From Frankia sp. R82 (GTDB taxonomy: Bacteria; Actinomycetota; Actinomycetes; Frankiales; Frankiaceae), in assembly GCF_023716925.1 (NCBI RefSeq), contig NZ_JAMQQG010000028.1, positions 1 through 48,162 on the forward strand: DNA of 48,162 nucleotides, written 5' to 3'. Below, one piece after another: positions 2,473 to 16,352 of the stretch. The position numbers were made by a program, and so were the translations under genes. How positions within the stretch are numbered: the first letter of the stretch is position 1; the number at the start of each line of letters is the position of its first letter. The notes beneath the pieces were generated by a model. It had not been told where the DNA came from. It saw only the letters and a program-made list of their open reading frames with translations, and searched no databases.

Positions 2473-3249
2473 GTTCAGTGTGACCAGCTGCTTCGAGCGC
2501 TGTCACCCCCAGTGATCCAGATCCCGATCGGACGGGTGTCCCCGCGTCCGGGGGTCGGTGCCTGGAAGCCGGTGCCTTTGCGTCGGTGCCGGGCATTGGT
2601 TACCGTGAACCCGCCGCGTGGTGGTGACGGCGGGAGGCGTGGGATCATGGTCAGGTCGCTGGTCGCGGTGAGACCGCGGTCCCGGGTGGACCTGGCCCGT
2701 GCGCTCACCCACCGCCGCCATATCGACACCTGTCGGGTGTGCACGGCGGCCTGTCCCCGCTGACCTTCGCGGTTTTCCGGCCCGCTGACCACCACGGCTG
2801 CAGGCCATGCCAGCTGCGGACCGATGTGGCCGTCGGCGGACCACCCCGGCTTCTGGTCATCCCGCCCTCCGGCCATCCGCCCGCGGAGCATCGTGGGCCC
2901 GCGGAGCATCGCGGGCCCGCGGAGCATCGTGGGCCCACGGAGTACCGCCGGCCCGCGGAGCACCGCTGATCCGCGCAGGACTGTCGGTCTGCGGAGCACC
3001 GTCGCGCGGCCTTGTCCGGTCGGCGACCTCGGTCGTCCATCCACCAGCAGGAACGGCGCTGCCTTGTCCGAATCCCGTGCGTCCTCGTCCTCGACTCCCT
3101 CGTCCTCGACTCCCTCGTCGGCGGGCTCTTCGTCCACGGGCCCTGCGTCCACGGGCCCTGCGTCCTCCGGCTCCGCATCGGCGAACCCCGCGTCCACGAG
3201 CGCCGCGGGCTCCTCCCCGTTCGCCCCGGCTGGCCGGTCCGACCGGTCC
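2473..3249. other. intergenic or N-terminal extension with 18-bp tandem repeats
   Basis: No independent gene is convincing here. The amidohydrolase frame is open back to an ATG at 2824, but this stretch would encode Ser/Thr/Pro-rich low-complexity residues. Bases about 2880-2970 hold five to six imperfect 18-bp tandem units (core gcggagcatcg) that read as a six-residue GPRSIV-type repeat. A long minus-strand frame also crosses the region and reads as an acidic repeat; neither is supported by family resemblance. Confidence 0.5.
2881..2970. repeat. 18-bp tandem repeat
   Basis: Direct units of the form cccgcggagcatcgtggg are repeated five to six times with small changes (gtggg/gcggg, catcg/taccg/caccg). 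The period of 18 keeps any reading frame intact. Confidence 0.8.
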
Positions 3250-4791
3250 GTGGTGTCGGACGACACCGACCAGCCGTTGCCGGAGTCGGGCGCCTCCGGT
3301 GAGGTCGACACCGGTTCGGCCGCGGCACCCGTGCGAGCCGGTCGCGCCGGGCAGGCGTTCACGCTGCGCGAGTGCCATGTGCTGGACCGGAGCGGACGGT
3401 TCGGCGAACCCTGTGACGTCGCCGTGCGGAACGGGGTGGTGCAGGCGGTCGGTCCCGCGCTGCCGCTGGATCCCGAGGCGATCGACGTCGACGCGCGGGG
3501 GCTGTTCGTCATGCCCGGGGTGATCGACTGTCACGCGCATGTCACCCAGTCCACCTATGACCCGTTCGAACTGGTCACGGCGCCGCTGTCCACCCGGTTC
3601 CTGCAGACGGCCGAGGCGTTGCGGGCCACGCTGCTCGCCGGGGTCACCTGGCTGCGCGATGCCGGTGGTGCCGATGCCGGAGTGCGGGACGCCCTCGCCG
3701 CCGGAGCCGTCCCCGGCCCGGCGCTCGCGGTGTCGGTGGTGGCGCTGAGTCGCACCGGGCGTCACGGTGACGGCGCTGTCCTCGGACCGGGCCTCGAGTC
3801 CACCCAGGACGTGCTCGGCCCCGCCTATCCGGAGCGCCCGGCCCACAGCACCAGCGTTGCCGGTGATCTGCCCACCGCCGTACGCGGGGTGCTACGGGCC
3901 GGTGCCGACTGGGTGATGATCTACGCCAGTGGTGGGGTGATGTCCACCCGTCCCGGGCACGTCGAAGTGCCGTTCGCCCCGGCGGAGCTGGTCGCGGCCG
4001 TCGCCGAGGCCGGTCGCTTCGGTCGGCCGGTGATGATGCACGCGCTGGGCGAGCGGGCCGTGGAGGCGGCGGTCGCGGCCGGAGCGCGTTCCATCGAGCA
4101 CGGCATCGGACTCGGCGAACGGGCCGCCGCCGCGATGGCGGCCCGCGGGGTGACTCTGGTCCCGACCCTGTCGTCCTACCTGGACCTGGCCGCGCTGGTT
4201 CGCACGGGTGTGCTGCCCGGCTGGGCGGTCGAACGTGCCGAGGCGACCGCCGCCGCGCTCGCCGAGACCATCGCGGTGGCCCGCGCAGCCGGCGTGCGCA
4301 TCGCTCTCGGTAGCGACGCCCGCCACCGCAGCCGGCACGGCGGCAACCTCGCCGAGATCAGCCACCTGCGCCGGGCCGGCCTCACCCCGCCGGAGGCCCT
4401 GCTCGCCGCGACCGCGAACGGCGCCGCGCTGTGCGCCCCGGGGCACGGCCGTACGGACGACACCACCCCGCATCGCGGCGCGCCTGGTTCCGGAACCGGA
4501 ACCGGTCCTGGCGTGGCGGGACGTCGGCGCGGACGGCTCGCGCCCGGCTACGTGTTCGACGCCATTGTGCTGGACACGGATCCGGGTGACCTGAGTCTGT
4601 TCGAACGCCGGGACGTCGTGCGCGGCGTCTTCACCGCGGGACGAGCGGTGCTCGCCCATCCTCGCCTGCCACCGGTGCTGGCCCGTGGTGCCTGGGCGTT
4701 CGCCGGCCCCACCCCGGCCGGCGACGAGACGGTGATCGGGTCGGCCCACAGTCCGTTCACCGGGCGGACCGACCCACGTCCGACCACCTGA
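3250..4791 (+). CDS. metal-dependent amidohydrolase family protein
   Basis: An imidazolonepropionase/prolidase-like amidohydrolase. Counting from the GTG at 3250 (514 aa), the beta-sandwich segment is followed by GVIDCHAHVTQS with the metal-binding His95 and His97. Then come WLRDAGG, the MIYASGG segment in the position of the bridging lysine strand, MHALGERAVEAAVAAGARSIEHG with further His ligands, and SDARHRSRHGG with the catalytic Asp. These features define the alpha/beta-barrel amidohydrolase fold; substrate cannot be deduced. The start is uncertain: the frame extends in low-complexity sequence to an ATG at 2824 (655 aa), while family similarity begins only near residue 40 of the version given here. 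A Gly/Thr-rich insertion interrupts the C-terminal part near 4450-4530. A strong terminator follows at 4799. Confidence 0.82.
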   Translation: MVSDDTDQPLPESGASGEVDTGSAAAPVRAGRAGQAFTLRECHVLDRSGRFGEPCDVAVRNGVVQAVGPALPLDPEAIDVDARGLFVMPGVIDCHAHVTQSTYDPFELVTAPLSTRFLQTAEALRATLLAGVTWLRDAGGADAGVRDALAAGAVPGPALAVSVVALSRTGRHGDGAVLGPGLESTQDVLGPAYPERPAHSTSVAGDLPTAVRGVLRAGADWVMIYASGGVMSTRPGHVEVPFAPAELVAAVAEAGRFGRPVMMHALGERAVEAAVAAGARSIEHGIGLGERAAAAMAARGVTLVPTLSSYLDLAALVRTGVLPGWAVERAEATAAALAETIAVARAAGVRIALGSDARHRSRHGGNLAEISHLRRAGLTPPEALLAATANGAALCAPGHGRTDDTTPHRGAPGSGTGTGPGVAGRRRGRLAPGYVFDAIVLDTDPGDLSLFERRDVVRGVFTAGRAVLAHPRLPPVLARGAWAFAGPTPAGDETVIGSAHSPFTGRTDPRPTT

Positions 4792-7474: not shown

Positions 7475-7674
7475 TCCGGCGCGGGCTCTGATCCGGCACG
7501 ACCGCCGGCGTCCCGGTCAGTACTGCCGGTGATGGACTACCCCATGCCGAGGCGGGGTATTCCCTGGACCGGCCCAGCGGGGCCGCCGGTCCCCGGGCGA
7601 TGGCGCGATACCGGGGTCCGTCTGGTGAGGATCGTCCGTTTGCGGAGGATCTCCGACCGACGAGGATCATCATC

Positions 7675-8736
7675 ATGGACGACGGTGGCAGGTGGGGGTC
7701 GGGCAGCAGCCCGGCGCCCACGAGCAGCCCGGCGCGCAGAGGCAGTCCGGCGCCGCGGAACGGACCCGCGTCCCGTGGCGGGCGGGACACCGGCCCCGGT
7801 GTCCGATCCGGTGATCGGGCCGAGAGCCGGGCCGATCACCGGGGCGACGAGCGGACCGATGGCCGGGGCGACGCGCGGGCCGGGGTGCTGTTCGCCGCGC
7901 TCGGGCCCCTGGAGGTGTGGCGGGCATCCGGCGAGCGGATCCGCATCGACCAACAGAAGAAGCGGGTCCTGCTGCTGGCCATGCTGGTGCGGCCGGGACG
8001 GTGGACGTCCGTCGAACAGCTGCGCCTGGCCCTGTGGCAGGACGCGCCACCCCGCTCGGCGTTGGGCAACATCAAGACCTACCTCTCCGAGCTGCGGCAC
8101 ACCCTGCCGCCACCCGCGGGTGCGCCGGTCGAACGGACGGCGGTCACGGTGGTCGGGCCGCGGGCCTCGGTGCTGCGTCGCCCGGTCGGGCCGGGCCGGA
8201 TCGAAAGCCGGCCGGGGGAGTACCGGCTGCTCGTCGACCCGGACGAGTTCGACGTGCTGCGCTTCAACCACGCCGTCGCGGCCGGCCGGGAGGCCGCCCG
8301 GGCCGGCCGGTGGCGCCCGGCCGCGGACCTGTTCGAACAGGCCCTCGGCTGGTGGCGCGGCAACGCCTTCGACGAGCTGCCGGCCGAGGTCGGCGGTGCT
8401 GAAAGTCTGCGCCTGGACGAGGCGCGCTGGGCGGCCCGCGAGGAGCTCATCGACGCGCGGCTCGCCCTCGGCGAGACCGATGCGGTGCTGCCGGCGCTGC
8501 GGGCGCTCACCGTCGAGTTTCCGACCCGTGAACGGCTGTGGGCGCAGCTGCTGACCGCGCTGGAACGTACCGGGCGACGGGCCGAAGCCCTGCACGAGTA
8601 CCGCGAGCTGTACCAGCGCCTGGTTACCGAGCTCGGCATCGAACCCGGGGCGGAACTGCGCCGCGTCCATCGGCAGGTGCTCGAGGCGGTCCCGTCCACC
8701 GACGCGGCGTCGGTCGCCTCGGTGAACCGGCGCTGA
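7675..8736 (+). CDS. SARP/BTAD-family transcriptional regulator of the lasso locus
   Basis: A 353-residue regulator. After a disordered N-terminus, a winged-helix OmpR-like DNA-binding domain starts near LFAALGPLEVWRASG and includes KKRVLLLAMLVRPGRWTS and SALGNIKTYLSELRHTL. A bacterial transcriptional activation (BTAD) helical-repeat domain follows, from about EYRLLVDPDEFDVLRF to the C-terminus, with the typical LWAQLLTALERTGRRAEALHEY and LVTELGIEPGAELR segments. Such SARP proteins activate neighbouring natural-product clusters. The gene lies 63 bases upstream of the lasso precursor on the same strand, so a pathway-specific role is likely. The ATG at 7675 has GAGGA 8 bases upstream; an in-frame ATG at 7600 without a good ribosome site is the alternative. 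Confidence 0.88.
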   Translation: MDDGGRWGSGSSPAPTSSPARRGSPAPRNGPASRGGRDTGPGVRSGDRAESRADHRGDERTDGRGDARAGVLFAALGPLEVWRASGERIRIDQQKKRVLLLAMLVRPGRWTSVEQLRLALWQDAPPRSALGNIKTYLSELRHTLPPPAGAPVERTAVTVVGPRASVLRRPVGPGRIESRPGEYRLLVDPDEFDVLRFNHAVAAGREAARAGRWRPAADLFEQALGWWRGNAFDELPAEVGGAESLRLDEARWAAREELIDARLALGETDAVLPALRALTVEFPTRERLWAQLLTALERTGRRAEALHEYRELYQRLVTELGIEPGAELRRVHRQVLEAVPSTDAASVASVNRR

Positions 8737-8799: not shown

Positions 8800-9018
8800 A
8801 TGACTGCAATGCGCGAGCAATCCTATGAGCGCCCGCAGCTGTCGACCGCCGGTCGGTTCATCGATGTCACTCGGGGCCGTTGGGGCTGGGGGCACGACTA
8901 TTTCTACCGTCGTTTCGGCTACTCCTATGGCTGTGACGGTGGCTGTGACGGCGGCGGTGGTTTCGGCGGCGCGGGATTCGGCGGTGGCGGATTCGTCGCC
9001 GGCGGGTTCTTCTTCTGA
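8800..9018 (+). CDS. lasso peptide precursor with extended Gly/Phe-rich core
   Basis: A 72-residue precursor. The leader holds the canonical lasso motif Y-x2-P-x-L-x3-G-x-F-x3-T at residues 9-24 (YERPQLSTAGRFIDVT), read by the RRE protein and peptidase. Thr24 at -2 predicts cleavage after Arg25. The core then begins GRWGWGHD: Gly1 and Asp8 would form an eight-residue macrolactam ring. The tail has bulky residues (YFYRRFGYSYG) suited to act as plugs. It then runs into CDGGCDGGGG and a Gly/Phe/Ala repeat ending in FFF. The post-cleavage region is 47 residues, against about 15-25 in known lasso peptides. GGAAGGG lies 9 bases before the ATG; a second Met at residue 4 is the alternative start. The cyclase begins 17 bases downstream. 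Confidence 0.88.
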   Translation: MTAMREQSYERPQLSTAGRFIDVTRGRWGWGHDYFYRRFGYSYGCDGGCDGGGGFGGAGFGGGGFVAGGFFF

Positions 9019-9035: not shown

Positions 9036-11012
9036 GTGACGACATCCACGTTGCGGCACCGTCCGGCCTGCTGGTTCGTCGTCCTGCCCGACCGTGAGCA
9101 GGTGGCGGTGCCGGCGGGGGGGCGTCAGGTGGTGCGCCACCGGTCGGGCCGGCCCTGGATCGTCGGCGACTGGCCGGCGGCGGCGATGGTCAGTGCGACG
9201 GCCGGGCGCCGTCAGATCGCGCTGGTCGGCTGCGCGGCCGTCCGGCCCGGCCGGCTGTTGGGACTGCTGGTGGCCGCGCACGACGTGCACACTCTCGACC
9301 TCGGCCGCGAGGTGGCCGGCGACTATCACCTGATCGCCGAGATCGACGGTCAGGCGCGGATCCAGGGCACGGCGACCGGTACCCGGCGGATCTTCACCGC
9401 CCGGGTGGGCGGGCACCTGCTGGCCGCCGACCGCGCCGACATTCTCGCCGGCCTGTGCGGCGCCCGACTCGACCGCACGGCGCTGGCGCTGGCGCTGCTG
9501 GACCCGTCCCCGCCGCATCCGCTCGATGACCTGGTGCCCTTCACGTCCGTGACGGCCGTCCCGCCCGAGGACTACCTGTTCGTCGACCGCGACGAACAGT
9601 CGCGCACGATTCGCCGGTGGCGGGCACCGGCAGCGGTGCGGTCGCGCTCCGAGGGAGCGGCGGTGCTGCGCGCGGCGCTGGCCGAGGCGGTGGCCGTGCG
9701 GGTGGCTGGCGGGCGGACCGTCAGCGCCGACCTGTCCGGCGGCCTCGACTCGAGCGCCGTGTGCTGCCTGGCCGCCCGGGGGCCGGCCGACGTCGTCGCC
9801 CTCACCGGCCTTGCCCGCGATCCCGGCGACGACGACGCCTACTGGGCTGGTCGGCTCGCCGCGTCGCTGCCGAGCCTCACCCGGGAGACCCTGGCCGCAG
9901 CCGACCTGCCGCTGGTCTACGACCGCATCGACGAGCCGGGCCCGACGACGGACCGCCCGTTCGTCGGCGTCGTCGACCGGGCCAAGCTGCTGGCCGGGCT
10001 TGACCATCTGGCGCTCTACGCCCCGCGGTTGCACCTGACCGGCTTCGGCGGTGACGAGCTCGTCGGCGGCGCCCCGAACCACCTGCCGTCCCTGATCCGC
10101 CGCCGCCCGGTGATGGCCCTGCGGCACCTGCGCGGCTATCGGGCCCAGGAGGGCTGGCCGTGGGCGGCGAGCCTGCGAATGATGCGCTCCCGCGACTACC
10201 GGGACTGCCTACGGGACATGGCCCGGGTCCTGGCCGTCGCCCGGGACGCCCGCACCGGCGGCACCCGGGCCACCCGGGGCGTCCGGGTGGGATACCCGGG
10301 ACGCCCCGGACGGTCCGCTCGCATGCTTCGGACGGTCGGCCGGCGAACCCGGCCGTATGTGACGGCGCTGGACTGGACGCCGCCGCCGGTGGTGCCCGGC
10401 TGGCTCACCGACGATGCCCTCGACCTCGTTGCGGAGGCCTTTGCGGTCGCGGCGGAGCAGGCGCTGCCGCTCGCCGAGACCCGTGCGGGCCACACCGACC
10501 TGTTCACCCTGCGGGCCGGCGCCGCGGCGTTCCGCGGATTCGACCAGATCGCCGACCCCCTGGGTCCGCCGCTGTCCGCGCCGTTCTACGACGAGCGGGT
10601 CGTGCGAGCGGCACTGGCCGTGCGGCCCGAGCTGCGCGCCTCGCCCTGGGAGTACAAACCGCTGCTCAAGGAGGCGATGCAGTCGGTGGTGCCGGCGGAG
10701 TGCCTGGGTCGGCGGACCAAGGCCGACGCGTCCACCGAGGAGGACCAGGGACTGCGGGCCAACCGCGAGATGCTGGTGAAGCTGTGTGACGCGTCGCCGC
10801 TGGCCGAGCTCGGGCTGATCGAGCCCGACCTGCTGCGCCAGGCCTGCCGGACGGGTGCCGTCCCCGACCATCGCGCCGAGGCGTTGCAGCCCACTATCGC
10901 CACCGACGCCTGGCTGCGTGCCCTGACCGGCACCGTCCTGACCAGCCCCGTTCTGACCCGCGGCGAGCTGACCACCAGCGAGCTGACCACCAGCGACCGG
11001 GGGGAGTTGTGA
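9036..11012 (+). CDS. lasC: lasso peptide cyclase, asparagine synthetase-like (LasC / C protein)
   Basis: A 658-residue lasso macrolactam synthetase homologous to asparagine synthetase B. It would adenylate the ring-closing Asp of the precursor core so the free N-terminal Gly can attack. Residues 1 to about 200 are a degenerate glutamine-amidotransferase-like domain without an N-terminal catalytic Cys, as usual in lasso cyclases. The PP-loop SGGLDSS is at residues 234-240. Later conserved parts include LTGFGGDELVGGAPNHL and, near the C-terminal third, YDERVVRAAL and EYKPLLKEAM followed by RRTKADAS. The GTG start at 9036 has GGCGGAGG upstream. The stop codon overlaps the start of the next gene, indicating translational coupling. 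Confidence 0.93.
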   Translation: MTTSTLRHRPACWFVVLPDREQVAVPAGGRQVVRHRSGRPWIVGDWPAAAMVSATAGRRQIALVGCAAVRPGRLLGLLVAAHDVHTLDLGREVAGDYHLIAEIDGQARIQGTATGTRRIFTARVGGHLLAADRADILAGLCGARLDRTALALALLDPSPPHPLDDLVPFTSVTAVPPEDYLFVDRDEQSRTIRRWRAPAAVRSRSEGAAVLRAALAEAVAVRVAGGRTVSADLSGGLDSSAVCCLAARGPADVVALTGLARDPGDDDAYWAGRLAASLPSLTRETLAAADLPLVYDRIDEPGPTTDRPFVGVVDRAKLLAGLDHLALYAPRLHLTGFGGDELVGGAPNHLPSLIRRRPVMALRHLRGYRAQEGWPWAASLRMMRSRDYRDCLRDMARVLAVARDARTGGTRATRGVRVGYPGRPGRSARMLRTVGRRTRPYVTALDWTPPPVVPGWLTDDALDLVAEAFAVAAEQALPLAETRAGHTDLFTLRAGAAAFRGFDQIADPLGPPLSAPFYDERVVRAALAVRPELRASPWEYKPLLKEAMQSVVPAECLGRRTKADASTEEDQGLRANREMLVKLCDASPLAELGLIEPDLLRQACRTGAVPDHRAEALQPTIATDAWLRALTGTVLTSPVLTRGELTTSELTTSDRGEL

Positions 11013-11482
11013 TGGTGACGTTGCGATCCGATGTGGTGCGGGCGCCGACCGAGTACGGCGCGGTGCTGCTGCACACCCACAACGGGCGGTACTGGACGCT
11101 CAACCCGTCCGGTGATCTGGTCCTGGGGGTGCTGCTCGCCGGCGGTGACGTGGCGGCGGCGACCGGCGAACTGTGCACCGTCAGCGACGTCGACCCCGAC
11201 ACCGCCCGTCGGGACGTGGAGGGCCTGCTCGCGCAGCTCACCGACGTCGGCCTGATCGACCCCACCGGCGAGGCGGGCGGCGAGGCGTCCGGCCAGGCGT
11301 CCGGCGGTGCCTTCGGCCACCCGAGGGCGGACAGTCCTCCTTCCACCCGGTCCGCGACGGACCCCGCCGGCCGCTCGCCTCGGCATCGTCCGGGCCGGAC
11401 GTCGCGGCCTGACGCCGACCGGTCGCGCACCGGAACGGGCCCGGGCGCCGGGCTGCGTTCGCGGCTACGGCGGCGCCGATGA
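11009..11482 (+). CDS. lasso peptide RRE protein (B1, PqqD family) with Arg-rich extension
   Basis: Residues 1 to about 85 form a PqqD-like RiPP recognition element: TEYGAVLLHTHNGRYWTLNPSGDLVLGVLL, then a helical part ending in LLAQLTDVGLID. This domain binds the precursor leader and delivers it to the peptidase. Stand-alone lasso B1 proteins are usually about 80-100 residues; this one continues to 157 residues with a Gly/Ser/Arg-rich, probably disordered tail ending RLRRRR. Both GTG (11009) and ATG (11012) can start it. It overlaps the cyclase by 4 bases and the peptidase start by 4 bases, so it is part of the same operon. Confidence 0.9.
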   Translation: MMVTLRSDVVRAPTEYGAVLLHTHNGRYWTLNPSGDLVLGVLLAGGDVAAATGELCTVSDVDPDTARRDVEGLLAQLTDVGLIDPTGEAGGEASGQASGGAFGHPRADSPPSTRSATDPAGRSPRHRPGRTSRPDADRSRTGTGPGAGLRSRLRRRR

Positions 11483-11928
11483 CCACGCCGATGACCCTCG
11501 AACGGCCGGAGGTGACCCTGGGCCCGATCCGGTGGCTCTGCGCGACGATCGCCGTCGCCGCGGCCCGGCTGCTGGCCACCCAGCAGCCGGCCCGGATCCA
11601 CCAGGTGCTCGACCGGCTGGCCCACGGCGCCCGACCGGCCGACTACGACCATGCCCTCGCCGCCCGCCAGGCGGTGATGGCGGTGAGCCTGACCTGCCGC
11701 GGAGCCCGCGGCTGCGTGCCTCGTTCGATCGCCACGATGCTGCTGTGTCGCCTTGGCGGTGCCGTGCCGACCTGGTGCGTGGGCGTGCGTTCGCTTGCCC
11801 CGTTCGCTGCGCATGCCTGGGTCGAGGTGGACGGCGTGATGGTCGGCGAGTCGGTCCCCCCGGACTACCTGCGGACCCTGCTCAGAGTCGGCCGCGAGGA
11901 CCTGCCGATGCGCGCTGGGGTGAGCTGA
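11479..11928 (+). CDS. lasso peptide leader peptidase (B2, transglutaminase-like)
   Basis: A 149-residue transglutaminase-like cysteine peptidase of the lasso B2 family. The catalytic Cys79 sits in CRGARGCVPRSIA, His112 in AHAWVEVDG, and the expected acidic partner is Asp118. An N-terminal hydrophobic helix (WLCATIAVAAARLL) is common in this family. It removes the leader after Arg25 of the precursor, once the RRE protein has bound it. The reading frame starts with ATG overlapping the end of the RRE gene (ATGA) and its TGA overlaps the ATG of the exporter (TGATG), so the genes are translationally coupled. Length is normal. Confidence 0.92.
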   Translation: MTTPMTLERPEVTLGPIRWLCATIAVAAARLLATQQPARIHQVLDRLAHGARPADYDHALAARQAVMAVSLTCRGARGCVPRSIATMLLCRLGGAVPTWCVGVRSLAPFAAHAWVEVDGVMVGESVPPDYLRTLLRVGREDLPMRAGVS

Positions 11929-13847
11929 TGCTCCGCGGGCTGGGAGAGCTGTGGGTGTTGCTGCGTGGGCGTCGCCGGCCGGTCGGGGTGGCCACGGCGC
12001 TCACGATCGTCGGCACCGGGATCGGGGTGCTGCAGCCCCTGCTGGTGATGCGGGTGATCGACGACGCGCAGGCCGGCGGCATTCCGCTGTGGGTCGTCGG
12101 CGCCCTGCTCGGCCTGTTCGTCGGGCAGGCCATCGCCGACACCGCCGGGCACTACCTGCTGGAACGCACCGGCCAGTCGATCCTGCTCAGCCTGCGCCGA
12201 CGCCTGATCGACCAGGTGCTGCGGCTGCGGATCAGGGTGCTCGACACCCACCGGATGGGGGACCTGATCTCCCGGGCGAACACCGACACGACCGTGGTGC
12301 GCGAGGCGGTCGCCTTCAGTTTTACCGCGCTCGTCACCAGCCTGATCGGCGTCATCGGCGCGATCGCGCTGATGGTCTGGCTGAACCCGTGGCTGTTCCT
12401 GCTGGTCCTCGCGGTGGTGCTGGTTGCCGGGACGGTCGTGCTCGCCGCCCTGTCGCGGATCCGGTCGGTGTCCGAACGCGGCCAGGCCAGCGTCGGCGCG
12501 ATGACCGCCGACCTCGAACGTGCCCTGACGGCCGTGCGCACCGTTCGGGCGAACCGGGCGGAGTCCCGTGAGGCCGAGCGCATCGGTGCGCACGCCGACG
12601 CCGCCTATCAGGCCGGCCTGCGGATGGCCACCCTCGACTCGATCATCGCGCCGGCCATGCAACTCGCCGTGCAGGGCAGCGTGCTCGTCGTTCTGCTCGT
12701 CGGCGGGGTGCTGGTGGCCCGGGGCAGCGCCACCCTCGGCAGTCTGGTCGCCTTCCTGCTGTACGCGACCTACCTGGTGATGCCGCTGGGCCAGCTGGTC
12801 GAGTCCGCCGCGACCATCCAGCGTGGGCTCGGTGCGCTCGGCCGGGTGAACGCCGTGTTCACCCTGCCCCGGGAGACCGACGAGGTCACCGCGATCGGCC
12901 CGCTGCATACGATCACCCTGCGCCCGTCCATCCCCTTCCCCCCGTCCACCCCCCTCACCCCGTCCCCGCCCACCTCGATGCCGGGACTGTCATCCGCGCC
13001 GGCGCTGGGGCCGTCATCCGCGCCGGCGCTGGAGCTGCGGGACGTGTGGTTCGCCTACGGCCTGCAGCCGGTGCTGCGCGGTGTGACCTTCCAGGTACCG
13101 CGGTGCGGACAGGTCGCCCTCGTGGGACCGTCCGGGGCGGGCAAGTCGACCATTCTCGAGCTCGTCGAACGGTTCTACGAGCCCGACGGTGGCCAGCTCC
13201 TCGTGGATGGCCAGGACGTGCGTACGATTGCGCGCCACCGCGCCCGTGCCCGGGTGAACCTGGTCGAACAGAGCACCCCGGTGCTGCACGGCACCCTGCG
13301 GGACAACATCGTCTACGCCGCACCGGAGGCCACCGAGGCGGACATCGACCAGGTCGTCACCGCCGCCGGCCTGCGTGACCTGGTGGACCGGCTGCCCGAC
13401 GGCCTGGCCACCCCCGTCGGTGATCACGGTGTGCTGCTCTCCGGCGGTGAGCGGCAGCGGGTGGCCATCGCCCGCGCGCTGCTGCCCCGTCCCGCGGTGC
13501 TGCTACTGGACGAGCCGACCTCCCAGCTCGACGCCGTCAACGAACGGGCGTTGACACGGGTGATGCGCCGGATCGCCGCCGAACGGGCCCTGCTGGTGAT
13601 TGCCCACCGTATCTCCACGGTCCGGGCCGCCGACCACATCGTCGTGCTCGACGCCGGACGGGTACGGGCCCAGGGCTCCCACGACGAACTCCTGGCGACC
13701 AGCGCCTTCTACCGCCGCCTCGCCGCCCCCGGCCCCAGCCCCGCCTCACCCAGCCCCGCCTCACCCAGCTCCGCATCGCCTGGTTTCGCGTCGCCTGATC
13801 TCGCAGCGCCCGGCCTTGCGCCGCCCGGTCCCGGCCGGGTCGCCTGA
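11928..13847 (+). CDS. lasso peptide ABC exporter (D protein)
   Basis: A 639-residue fused membrane/ATPase half-transporter. Residues 1 to about 310 are a six-helix ABC exporter domain. After a Pro/Ser linker, the ATPase shows Walker A GPSGAGKST near residue 400, Q-loop VNLVEQST, signature LLSGGERQRVAIARALL, Walker B AVLLLDEPTSQLDA and switch His in LLVIAHRIST. It would export the mature lasso peptide and may give self-immunity. The ATG at 11928 is chosen because it overlaps the peptidase stop codon; the frame is open far upstream but that part overlaps other genes. Odd points are a 20-base direct repeat (gtcatccgcgccggcgctgg) in the linker near 12990-13035 and a C-terminal PASPSPASPS-type repeat. 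Confidence 0.93.
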   Translation: MLRGLGELWVLLRGRRRPVGVATALTIVGTGIGVLQPLLVMRVIDDAQAGGIPLWVVGALLGLFVGQAIADTAGHYLLERTGQSILLSLRRRLIDQVLRLRIRVLDTHRMGDLISRANTDTTVVREAVAFSFTALVTSLIGVIGAIALMVWLNPWLFLLVLAVVLVAGTVVLAALSRIRSVSERGQASVGAMTADLERALTAVRTVRANRAESREAERIGAHADAAYQAGLRMATLDSIIAPAMQLAVQGSVLVVLLVGGVLVARGSATLGSLVAFLLYATYLVMPLGQLVESAATIQRGLGALGRVNAVFTLPRETDEVTAIGPLHTITLRPSIPFPPSTPLTPSPPTSMPGLSSAPALGPSSAPALELRDVWFAYGLQPVLRGVTFQVPRCGQVALVGPSGAGKSTILELVERFYEPDGGQLLVDGQDVRTIARHRARARVNLVEQSTPVLHGTLRDNIVYAAPEATEADIDQVVTAAGLRDLVDRLPDGLATPVGDHGVLLSGGERQRVAIARALLPRPAVLLLDEPTSQLDAVNERALTRVMRRIAAERALLVIAHRISTVRAADHIVVLDAGRVRAQGSHDELLATSAFYRRLAAPGPSPASPSPASPSSASPGFASPDLAAPGLAPPGPGRVA

Positions 13848-13956: not shown

Positions 13957-15441
13957 TCAGGCGGTGGGGGGTGGGGCCAAAGCCGACTTGCGAACCTTGC
14001 CGATCGCGTTGCGGGGCAGCTCCGTAACGAAGTGGATCTCCCGCGGGCGCTTGTGCACGGACAGCTCGCGTGCGACGAAGTCAACGAGCTCGGCGCGCTC
14101 AGGGGCGGCCTCGGTCGTGACGACGAAGGCGGCGATGCGCTGGCCGAGATCGGTGTCGGGCAGGCCGACCACCGCCGCCTCCCGGACCGCCGGATGCGAC
14201 AGCAACGCCGCCTCGACCTCGCCGGCGCCGATTCGGTACCCCCCCGACTTGATCAGGTCGGTGGAGCGCCGTCCGACGATCCGATGGTTGCCGTCGGCGT
14301 CGATCACGGCGGCGTCCCCGGTGCGGAACCAGCCGTCCGCACTGAAGGACCCGGCGGTGGCGTCCGGGCGGCCGAGGTAGCCGCCGAACAGGGTCGGGCC
14401 CTGGATCTGCAGTTCACCGATGCTGTGCGCATCGTGGGGCAGCGGCTCGCCCGTCTCGTCGTCGACGAGCCTGGTCCGCACACCGGGCAGTGCCGTACCG
14501 ACCCAGCCGGGCCGGCGCTCGACGCCCACCCGCCCGCTCGTGGTGATCAGTGTCTCGGTCATCCCGTACCGCTCGATCGGCGCCTGACCGGTGAGCTCCC
14601 GCATCCGTTCGATCACCGGTACCGGCAGCGGCGCGCTGCCCGAGACGAGCAGCCTGGCCGACCGCAGCGCCCGCGCGCTCGCCGGATCCTCGCAGATCCT
14701 CGACCACACGGTTGGCACCCCGAAGTACAGGCTGCCCCCCGCCGCCGCGTACGCCGACGGCGTCGGACGCACCGTGTGGATGAGCCGGCTCCCGATCCGC
14801 AGCGGGCCGAACACCCCGAGCACCAGCCCGTGGATGTGGAAGATCGGCAACCCGTGGACGAGCGTGTCCTGCGGCGTCCACGCCCAGGCCTCGGCGAGCG
14901 CATCAAGATCGGCGGCGATCGCCGACGCGGGCACCATGACCCCCTTGGGGGCTCCGGTCGTCCCCGAGGTGTAAAGGATCAGCGCCGGTGGAGGCGCAGA
15001 GCCGGTGCCACCGGTGGGAGTGGGCGTGGTGCCGCCGGTAGGAGTAGGCGTGGTGCCGCCGGTCGGGGCAGGCGCCGGTGGGGCGATGTCCGCGCGGTCG
15101 CGCACGTCCACGGGGATCACGGGCAGGGACAGGTCGTCCCATGGCGGGCTGCCCAGCATCAGCGCGGCGCCGCTGTCGCCCAGGAAGTGCTCTCGTTCCC
15201 GCGGCCCCGAATCCGGTGGGATCGGGACCGCCGGCACCCCGGCCAGCAGACAGCCGACGACGGCCACGATCGTCGCGGCCGACGCCTCCCCGTACACCGC
15301 CGCCGCTGGCGCACCGGCGACCCGGCGGGCCACCGCTGCGGCGGCGCCGAACAGGTCGGTGCGGGACAGCACAACATCGCCCACCTGTACCGACGGAGCA
15401 TCTTGATCGACGTCGAGTGGTGGAAAGAGACTCAGGCTCAC
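13957..15441 (-). CDS. matB: malonyl-CoA synthetase-like acyl-CoA ligase
   Basis: A 494-residue AMP-forming ligase of the ANL superfamily. The phosphate-binding motif is LILYTSGTTGAPKGVM. Resemblance to MatB-type malonyl-CoA synthetases is strong in GLPIFHIHGLVLG, IERYGMTETLITTS, GWFRTGDAAV, RIVGRRSTDLIKSGGYRIG and the C-terminal catalytic-lysine segment PRNAIGKVRKSAL. It would load malonate or a related acid onto CoA as polyketide or fatty-acid extender supply. The GTG start at 15441 is preceded by GAGG. A Pro/Thr/Gly insertion (PTGGTTPTPTGG) encoded by 24-base direct repeats lies just before the P-loop. The gene runs convergent to the lasso exporter, so it is probably not part of that operon. 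Exact acid specificity is inferred. Confidence 0.85.
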   Translation of the reverse strand: MSLSLFPPLDVDQDAPSVQVGDVVLSRTDLFGAAAAVARRVAGAPAAAVYGEASAATIVAVVGCLLAGVPAVPIPPDSGPREREHFLGDSGAALMLGSPPWDDLSLPVIPVDVRDRADIAPPAPAPTGGTTPTPTGGTTPTPTGGTGSAPPPALILYTSGTTGAPKGVMVPASAIAADLDALAEAWAWTPQDTLVHGLPIFHIHGLVLGVFGPLRIGSRLIHTVRPTPSAYAAAGGSLYFGVPTVWSRICEDPASARALRSARLLVSGSAPLPVPVIERMRELTGQAPIERYGMTETLITTSGRVGVERRPGWVGTALPGVRTRLVDDETGEPLPHDAHSIGELQIQGPTLFGGYLGRPDATAGSFSADGWFRTGDAAVIDADGNHRIVGRRSTDLIKSGGYRIGAGEVEAALLSHPAVREAAVVGLPDTDLGQRIAAFVVTTEAAPERAELVDFVARELSVHKRPREIHFVTELPRNAIGKVRKSALAPPPTA

Positions 15442-16352
15442 CTGGGTATCCTCTCGAAAGTGGCCCCCCGCGGCCTGCCGTTTCGCCGTCACATCCGGCC
15501 ACCACACCTTGTCACCGCGAAACCGCCAGACGTGTACTGGGTGGCGCTGCTGCCGCCAGGCCGGGAGCAACCCTCGAACCGTGGTTGCTCGGCCCGATTT
15601 TCACCGTGTCCAGCGACCGCGCCTCGCCCATCGACCGCAGCAGCCCCTGGTTCACGGAAATCGGCCTGAACGGCCACGCTCCGCATCCGAAGCACACCTC
15701 ACTCGCGCAGACAGCAACACCACCCCGTCTCTGCCGCCCCCCCGCACCCCGCACCATCATGGAAAGTGGCCATGGTCGATGGACGGCCCGGTGTCGCCCG
15801 AACAAGCCAGCGGAATCGTCGCGGTCGGCAACACGACCACGACCACGCATGTGCATCCCGCACACCCGCGCCGGTGCCTCCGCGTCCGCCTTGGCCGGCG
15901 ACCCTTCCGCCAAGTCACGGGTTCTTGCCGAGGCGGAGTGAAGGTTCCGGCCCGCCGATCCTTCACTAAGCCTCGGCAAGAACAGATCATGGCTTTCGGT
16001 CGCCCGCGAGCGAGCCGGTTTCGTCGCGAGAAGTGGTGTGGATGGCACAGAAAGTGTCGGTTGGCGGGCGTCGGAGAAGGATGGGCGTGAGGGTGTTCTG
16101 GTGGAACGTTCACCGATCCGGGATGGTCACTCTCCGACATGTCTGCGCGGAATGTGATGGCATGCCTACATCTCGACAGCCAGGACCACCGATGGCCGAC
16201 GCCGGATCTGCGGATCGTGGGGTTGCCACGGTCGACGTACGCGGCAGAAGGCACGCCGGAGCACGGACAGACCCCAACGTTCACGGCCCCTTGTTACGGA
16301 GGGTTGCGAAAAGGGCCGGTTGCTGTCCGACGTGGACGATCGTGGAGGTTGG
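15442..16352. other. intergenic region without a convincing gene
   Basis: Several open frames cross this 0.9 kb stretch, but none has sustained codon bias or family resemblance. It contains the long inverted repeat at 15921-15983 and should hold the promoters of the ligase (leftward) and of cobL (rightward). No cobalamin riboswitch landmarks were recognised before cobL. Confidence 0.4.
15921..15983. repeat. long inverted repeat, 24-base arms
   Basis: gttcttgccgaggc then gg then agtgaagg (15921-15944) pairs with ccttcact then aa then gcctcggcaagaac (15960-15983) around a 15-base loop. That gives 22 of 24 pairs with one 2-base internal mismatch. There is no T-run. Confidence 0.85.

Follow-up and report, generated by a model that had tools for sequence, protein, structure and literature searches.

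A probable lasso peptide precursor with a long glycine-rich extension in Frankia sp. R82 and related operons of the Frankiaceae

The contig of Frankia sp. R82 analyzed here (NZ_JAMQQG010000028.1 of assembly GCF_023716925.1, positions 1 to 48,162; the whole 48,162-nucleotide stretch is referred to as the window) encodes a lasso peptide precursor with 47 residues after its leader, and the same long precursor recurs in frame in five other Frankia species. We consider, with a probability of roughly 0.55, that this is a working lasso operon whose precursor joins two selected modules through a flexible Gly-rich linker, the first (N-terminal) being the ring and plug, GRWGWGHD-YFYRRF, and the second (C-terminal) the hydrophobic end, GGFVAGGFFF, and that the tail stays on the product. 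The RiPP recognition element (RRE, B1) would bind the leader, the B2 peptidase would cleave after Arg25, the cyclase would activate Asp8 and link it to Gly1, closing the ring around the YFYRRF stretch, and the product would be exported by the ABC protein. In the parts of the respective papers available, activation of an Asp or Glu at position 7, 8 or 9 by ATP (PMC4979651) and binding of the leader by B1, which B2 needs (PMC5067487), have been described. With the tail retained and without a disulfide, the lasso would have a monoisotopic mass of about 4826.02 Da and carry some 33 residues past Phe14. The setting is that of nitrogen-fixing symbionts; the window genome is a 6.9 Mb draft, and the best match of its cyclase among named relatives is in Candidatus Frankia nodulisporulans (82%).

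Precursor gene and operon in the window

The precursor leader carries every residue of the Y-P-L-G-F-T motif that the initial annotation had read in it (Y9, P12, L14, G18, F20 and T24-R25, with Thr at position −2), and it scored 17.3 bits with the NCBIfam profile lasso_leader_L3, just below the cut-off of 19 bits. The remainder, GRWGWGHDYFYRRFGYSYGCDGGCDGGGGFGGAGFGGGGFVAGGFFF, begins at G26 and is 47 residues long, and translation thus bears out the Gly1 start, the Asp8 and the length originally proposed for the core. Core positions 7–9 of the window precursor contain no acid other than Asp8, and an Asp is found at position 8 in all six long-tailed Frankia. The window core also contains two Cys, which are not retained in G002 or G006 (genomes are referred to by our own numbers, G000 being that of the window). 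The strand opposite the precursor gene is also open, and inspection of this reading frame gave nothing in its favor as a gene.

Downstream of the precursor, the set of lasso genes is complete, as had been claimed for the neighborhood, with a cyclase, a PqqD-type RRE, a B2 peptidase and an ABC transporter whose starts overlap or are closely spaced (Table 1). Both the RRE (91.9 bits, cut-off 70) and B2 (104.1 bits, cut-off 33) scored above their NCBIfam cut-offs. The operon thus contains an RRE, a transglutaminase-like peptidase and an asparagine-synthetase-like cyclase together, as in lasso systems, and the active-site residues of the two enzymes are conserved. The PP-loop of the cyclase (SGGLDS) aligns with that of beta-lactam synthetase (1jgt), and the best NCBIfam match of the protein was NF033561, the model for albusnodin and ikarugamycin cyclases, at 256 bits and therefore below the 300-bit cut-off. 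Albusnodin requires an acetyltransferase; the window has none between the SARP regulator and D.

The neighbors compared between loci were an SLT/peptidoglycan-binding protein, SARP, C, B1, B2, D, the AMP-binding enzyme, a tetrapyrrole methylase and the amidohydrolase-family gene. Among these compared genes, to which the annotation was confined, no peptidase besides B2 and no dedicated follower peptidase was obvious; the one hydrolase whose substrate is uncertain is that of the amidohydrolase family. The AMP-binding gene is a conserved neighbor that probably does not belong to the lasso pathway. No kinase gene was found in the window operon.

Table 1. Positions of the features discussed in the window, and loci of related peptides elsewhere.
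Feature	Positions or loci	Strand	Remarks
Amidohydrolase-family gene, 4 kb upstream of the operon	2824-4788	+	Shared by five of the Frankia loci compared
SARP/BTAD regulator	7600..8736	+	Precedes the operon; syntenic with it in Frankiaceae
Lasso precursor gene (A)	8800..9018	+	72 aa and stop; translation MTAMREQSYERPQLSTAGRFIDVTRGRWGWGHDYFYRRFGYSYGCDGGCDGGGGFGGAGFGGGGFVAGGFFF
Leader, 25 aa, YxxPxLxxxGxFxxxT-R	8800..8874	+	Translation, motif, leader profile
Ring and loop GRWGWGHDYFYRRF, Gly1 to Phe14	8875..8916	+	pN/pS 0.06 over 6 species
Predicted Gly1-Asp8 ring	8875-8898	+	Asp at core position 8
Gly-rich linker, 23 codons in the window	8917..8985	+	17–24 codons across six species
Conserved C-terminal end GGFVAGGFFF	8986..9015	+	pN/pS 0.16–0.19
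Asparagine-synthetase-like lasso cyclase (C), 658 aa	9036..11012	+	PP-loop SGGLDSS intact
PP-loop SGGLDSS codons	9735..9755	+	Asp (238) replaced in G001, G003, G009 and G011
B1, PqqD-type RiPP recognition element	11009..11482	+	Low-complexity C-terminal extension
B2, transglutaminase-like leader peptidase	11479..11928	+	Cys (RGCVPRS) and His (AHAWVE) present
D, ABC exporter	11928..13847	+	Walker A, signature, Walker B
AMP-binding (acyl-CoA-synthetase-like) gene, conserved neighbor	13957..15570	-	Locus comparison
FAD-dependent oxidoreductase-like gene near Gly-Trp peptides	L171, L172, L174, L176, L178, L179, L184-L188, L190, L191, L194, L196, L197		
Lasso-leader-like peptides of family f19	L117, L143, L144, L146, L148, L150, L155, L157-L159		

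Conservation of the precursor and the cyclase

A cyclase was found in all 13 genomes of the genus, and six of these (G000, G002, G006, G007, G008 and G012) encode a long-tailed precursor with 41–48 residues after the leader, each in frame and closed by a stop codon in a conserved neighborhood. Because five Frankia species other than that of the window encode the same precursor in frame and with a conserved end, the tail is taken as real and selected; the initial annotation had raised both the conservation of the tail alongside this cyclase and a frameshift within it, and the first was observed, while none of the six long-tailed species shows the second. That the tail arose by chance or through a frameshift was considered and ruled out, as frame and end recur in the six species. 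The G012 precursor (upstream of the core, L036) has a longer N-terminus than that of the window, in which another YEPN stretch precedes the actual leader motif.

Over the six long-tailed species, pN/pS was 0.06 for the ring and loop and 0.16 for the last ten codons (0.19 with G005), and the leader gave 0.36 with G005 included; these values are simple Nei-Gojobori proportions over species pairs that are not independent, and G005 was counted only for its leader and end. Given these ratios and the variation of the linker from 17 to 24 codons, it is the two ends of the core that are constrained, and the linker is a free spacer. Synonymous divergence is low in the last ten codons (pS 0.27), and the conservation of the C-terminal end may come partly from nucleotide constraint or codon bias.

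In the seven remaining Frankia, the precursor is changed, broken or missing, or active-site residues of the cyclase are altered. G003 has a core of 15 residues, GRWGWGRDYSWRRFA, without a tail. The precursors of three genomes are acid-less: that of G005 keeps the leader and an end reading FAAGGFFF, with Asp8 and the loop lost, and in G004 and G010 the leader is degraded too. Only remnants without a readable leader are present in G001 and G011, the leader too being lost in these damaged genes, and in G009 no precursor was found in the stretch read before the cyclase.

The cyclases were compared at 83 columns that do not vary among 15 sequences from beyond the genus (the L048 row, with a stop in the translated stretch, was left out). 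All five long-tailed species with a full-length cyclase retain Asp238, Asp340, Glu341, Lys541 and Lys562, each differing at 7–10 other columns, and the G006 cyclase, cut by a contig end, retains both motifs that it covers. In the other genomes these same positions are substituted: K541R and K562R in G005; D340E, K541R and K562R or K562S in G004 and G010; D238A with changes at 340, 541 and 562 in G001, G009 and G011; and D238S, with the PP-loop Asp gone, in G003. Where the precursor lacks its acid, is broken or is missing (six genomes), some of the substitutions are conservative; the roles of Asp340, Glu341, Lys541 and Lys562 are presumed from their conservation.

Within the genus, the acceptor acid and these cyclase residues have been lost together. 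Two genomes speak against a simple match between them, G003 with Asp8 but an altered PP-loop, and G022, from another genus, with an acid-less precursor but intact cyclase motifs. Since Asp8 and the cyclase active site are kept together in the clade of the window, the ring is very likely formed there. The early judgment that this precursor is very likely a real substrate is also well supported here, as the long-tailed genomes with Asp8 keep the cyclase active-site residues and the others have substitutions.

Long Gly-rich extensions are also encoded elsewhere in the family. In five genomes of genus g7, 34–44 Gly-rich residues with a VIII or AIIIV patch follow GRxGWGRD rings; in the sixth (G034) the precursor runs off the contig end after 20 residues and is therefore uninformative on the length of the tail. 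The post-leader regions of G022 and G023 are 25 and 30 residues long.

Operons that persist without the ring step

In the six Frankia genomes with an eroded precursor, median pN/pS was 0.42 for the cyclase, 0.17 for B1, 0.25 for B2, 0.25 for D and 0.14 for SARP, compared to 0.42, 0.31, 0.35, 0.38 and 0.37, respectively, in six others (five long-tailed genomes and G003, without G006). Control neighbors also drop in the eroded clade, from 0.40 to 0.27 for the SLT-domain gene and from 0.34 to 0.25 for the AMP-binding enzyme. The cyclase is the sole gene of the seven without such a drop, with values well under 1. None of the B1, B2 and D matches contains an internal stop, the Cys and His of B2 are present in 30 of 30 family rows, and the ABC motifs are found in all rows that cover them.

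Outside the genus, three further genera contain ten genomes whose operon has no cyclase (G016-G021, G029, G032, G024 and G026). Regulator, RRE and peptidase are kept in all ten, and the exporter is in view in nine, the contig of G020 ending before D. The SARP and RRE matches of six genomes of genus g5 are only 90–149 bases apart, a gap into which neither a precursor nor a cyclase fits. A search for a relative of the cyclase elsewhere in the ten genomes, at E values up to 1e-6, found none in any of them. On a tree of B1 and B2 (226 columns, rooted only for drawing, without G006, cut by its contig, and G025, which has a different lasso locus), the absence of the cyclase takes five changes, four of which are forced by well-supported branches. 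The presence of cyclases in other families points to loss rather than gain, and the ring step looks to have been lost repeatedly elsewhere in the Frankiaceae.

In G032 (L231), leader, ring and cyclase are gone, and the tail-like sequence GGGGVIIIGGGGGGW between SARP and B1 is an apparent relic of a precursor tail. G024 and G026, both cyclase-less, have a linked precursor with a lasso leader (part of the stretch before that of G024 reads N). The precursors of genus g6 (L041/L061, L118/L135, L043/L062 and L233) include three Tyr/Gly/Arg-rich cores beginning GYYGGHRR or GYYGYHRR, with Gly, Asn or Asp at position 9; the core of G024, which begins DCYGDDDYG, is unlike the others.

A further type of lasso-leader peptide, MKATYEAPALQxQGSFRxxTG followed by Gly-Trp repeats, was found to be encoded outside the operon in searches with the leader profile and with a peptide query. 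Such peptides are present in at least 24 of the 35 family genomes, a lower bound given that the leader profile was run across the family and the peptide query in the genus only; 20 of these genomes have a complete copy, and all 24 have the operon. Several of the peptides stop at contig ends, so that counts may be low. None was found in G013-G015, which also gave no match for cyclase, B1 or B2 (one of them is 63% complete), nor in eight genomes with such lasso genes or a relative (G006, G007, G022-G026 and G034). The 30 complete peptides have 30–52 residues after the leader Thr, without any Asp or Glu in 27 of them, and none has an acid at core position 7–9. The cut-off of NF033521 (lasso_leader_L3) was exceeded by all five Gly-Trp peptides tested and that of DUF5972 (PF19397) by both of two; these matches lie in the leader only. 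The window precursor narrowly misses the NF033521 cut-off and gave no match to DUF5972.

The window genome itself encodes a lasso-leader peptide of this kind outside the operon (G000:C43, L199:4123-4314; also L120), with a Gly-Trp-rich core beginning HGFVIGFGGGGWGWRRGWGGGG, downstream of an MFS-like transporter gene. At 16 loci in three genera (Table 1), a FAD-dependent oxidoreductase-like gene starts about 105–295 bases downstream of the Gly-Trp peptide on the same strand; it is possibly a tailoring enzyme, or the arrangement may merely reflect shared synteny.

A reading compatible with the lasso-tail proposal, which we hold tentatively and at somewhat less than even odds, is that the operon is conserved mainly for removing the leaders of Gly-aromatic peptides and exporting them, with the ring optional; the tail would then be a payload, and the lasso ring an added cap or a leftover of a lasso ancestor. 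It draws on the ten cyclase-less operons, on the replaced PP-loop Asp in four further genomes, on the B2 Cys and His found in every family row and on the wide occurrence of the Gly-Trp peptides. The same reading is favored by G001, G004, G009, G010 and G011, in which the sole B1 and the sole B2 found sit in the operon with the eroded precursor and each of which has a Gly-Trp peptide (in G004 and G010 truncated where the contig stops). Most simply, B1 and B2 would act on these peptides in trans. However, such trans processing is putative, and the window tail resembles the Gly-Trp payload in a way that carries little weight in low-complexity sequence. The ring is, moreover, the most conserved part of the precursor in the clade of the window, the cyclases of the eroded clade remain open with a pN/pS of about 0.42 as in other Frankia and are thus not simply neutral, and eight genomes with lasso genes yielded no Gly-Trp peptide, in a survey whose peptide query covered the genus.

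For the family as a whole, it is conceivable, if somewhat more doubtful than not, that a lasso operon has turned into a ring-optional secretion route. A single RRE, peptidase and exporter would serve several precursors, mostly linear, Gly-Trp-rich and encoded at other sites of the genome; cyclisation would have been lost several times by deletion or active-site decay; and the clade of the window would have kept the ring and fused it to a Gly-aromatic payload, the result being a tail with a lasso cap, of which no example has so far been isolated. If this is true, a RiPP pathway can shed its defining chemistry and keep recognition, cleavage and export for new substrates, and counts of ‘lassopeptide’ clusters by enzyme content can misjudge Frankiaceae genomes.

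The closest precedent for the cyclase-less operons is that of the linear polyphosphorylated peptides (LPP; Popov et al., 2026; PMC13381572), described in the part of that paper available as linear, cyclase-less lasso relatives, mostly of Bacillota. Both have a lasso-type leader, an RRE and an exporter and no macrolactam cyclase, but the LPP systems use a signal-peptidase-like LppS, an HprK-like kinase and an NTP transferase, whereas the Frankiaceae operons have a canonical B2 peptidase. The window is unlike LPP in having an intact macrolactam cyclase, the absence of which is limited to the ten other Frankiaceae genomes.

Length of the core and fate of the extension

Lasso-type cores near enzymes outside the family were 14–36 residues long (n = 39 sampled) compared to 47 in the window, in a sample that was drawn by motif search on loci cleared of family members with a hand-made list and that includes at least two rows that look like chance ORFs (the 14-residue L053 and the 36-residue L260) and several near-copies. 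A further 29 motif ORFs without a nearby enzyme, of 16–38 residues, were excluded from it. The 15–25 residues initially given for known cores are thus roughly right, and the window core lies outside the known range, length being a typical rather than a defining property of lasso peptides. One sampled relative (L116), whose 15-residue core GFIGWGKDIFGHYGG adjoins a cyclase, has the same GxxGWGxD Gly1-Asp8 ring as the window without the Gly-rich extension. Anantin-type lasso peptides of actinobacteria have an eight-residue ring of this kind.

In a 2026 review (PMC13352647), the longest tail named is that of pandonodin, with 18 of 33 aa in total, and achromonodin-1 (30 aa, with a loop of 20) is named as a record. 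Pandonodin (class IV) is like the window peptide in its exceptional C-terminal tail, and its enzymes accept tail additions; it differs in having 33 aa compared to a 47-aa core, and one tail-tail disulfide. According to the same review, tail additions usually cut the yield strongly and endogenous carboxypeptidases trim tails; C-terminal additions, even fusion proteins, are well tolerated by some lasso systems (PMC13352647).

As the main alternative to a retained tail, the extension could be a follower that helps the precursor to fold, stay soluble or be exported and that is trimmed off once the ring has closed, so that an ordinary lasso of some 14–20 residues remains. Gly1 to Phe14, the ring and plug, is the most constrained part of the precursor and resembles an ordinary short lasso, the variable linker is what would be expected of a discarded spacer, and the 15-residue core of G003 indicates that the tail is not always present. 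The G003 cyclase is without Asp238, however, so that this genome does not exemplify a functional short version. The part of the tail that is conserved is its extreme end and not the site adjoining the plug, and cleavage near YSYG, as suggested in the initial annotation, is not supported, this motif sitting in the variable linker. With no obvious follower peptidase among the compared neighbors, unless the amidohydrolase-family gene encodes one, and with the extreme end conserved, retention of the tail is slightly favored over removal, and we regard a follower as unlikely. Decay of the cluster, with a slippage-prone Gly-rich tail of little function that is tolerated by enzymes reading leader and ring only, might be suspected from the varying linker length and from the 6 of 13 genus genomes that have a precursor without the acid, a broken one or none at all, together with an altered cyclase active site (seen in G003 too), but it is improbable given the conserved ring, end, cyclase and exporter in the clade of the window and the clear purifying selection on SARP, B1, B2 and D (median pN/pS 0.14–0.25) even beside a broken precursor.

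A lasso that is threaded and exported with its tail attached, as proposed for the window, would exceed in length every lasso peptide that the cited papers name, and could serve as a natural model for lasso-tail fusions such as engineers now build. As to any activity of such a product, contact of its C-terminal end with a membrane or surface is a guess from hydrophobicity.

Lasso clusters have been counted in Frankia before, and, as noted above, linear cyclase-less lasso relatives with a different peptidase are already known. In the parts of the sources available, the Frankia clusters are only counted as ‘lassopeptide’ (PMC11323853, PMC9760358, PMC7532629), and Frankia is mentioned for other RiPPs (PMC13001092). 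Among the matches listed from the open-licence literature (titles and abstract openings), there was no description of the precursor, the cyclase-less operons or the Gly-Trp peptides, and the text of PMC8498205 held no relevant match.

In another family (f19), at loci where the short stretches covered contain no enzyme of lasso type (Table 1), there are lasso-leader-like peptides, often paired, that carry the sequence SVRELTL-AASGRGRSDQVQWFRYDNDPGG.
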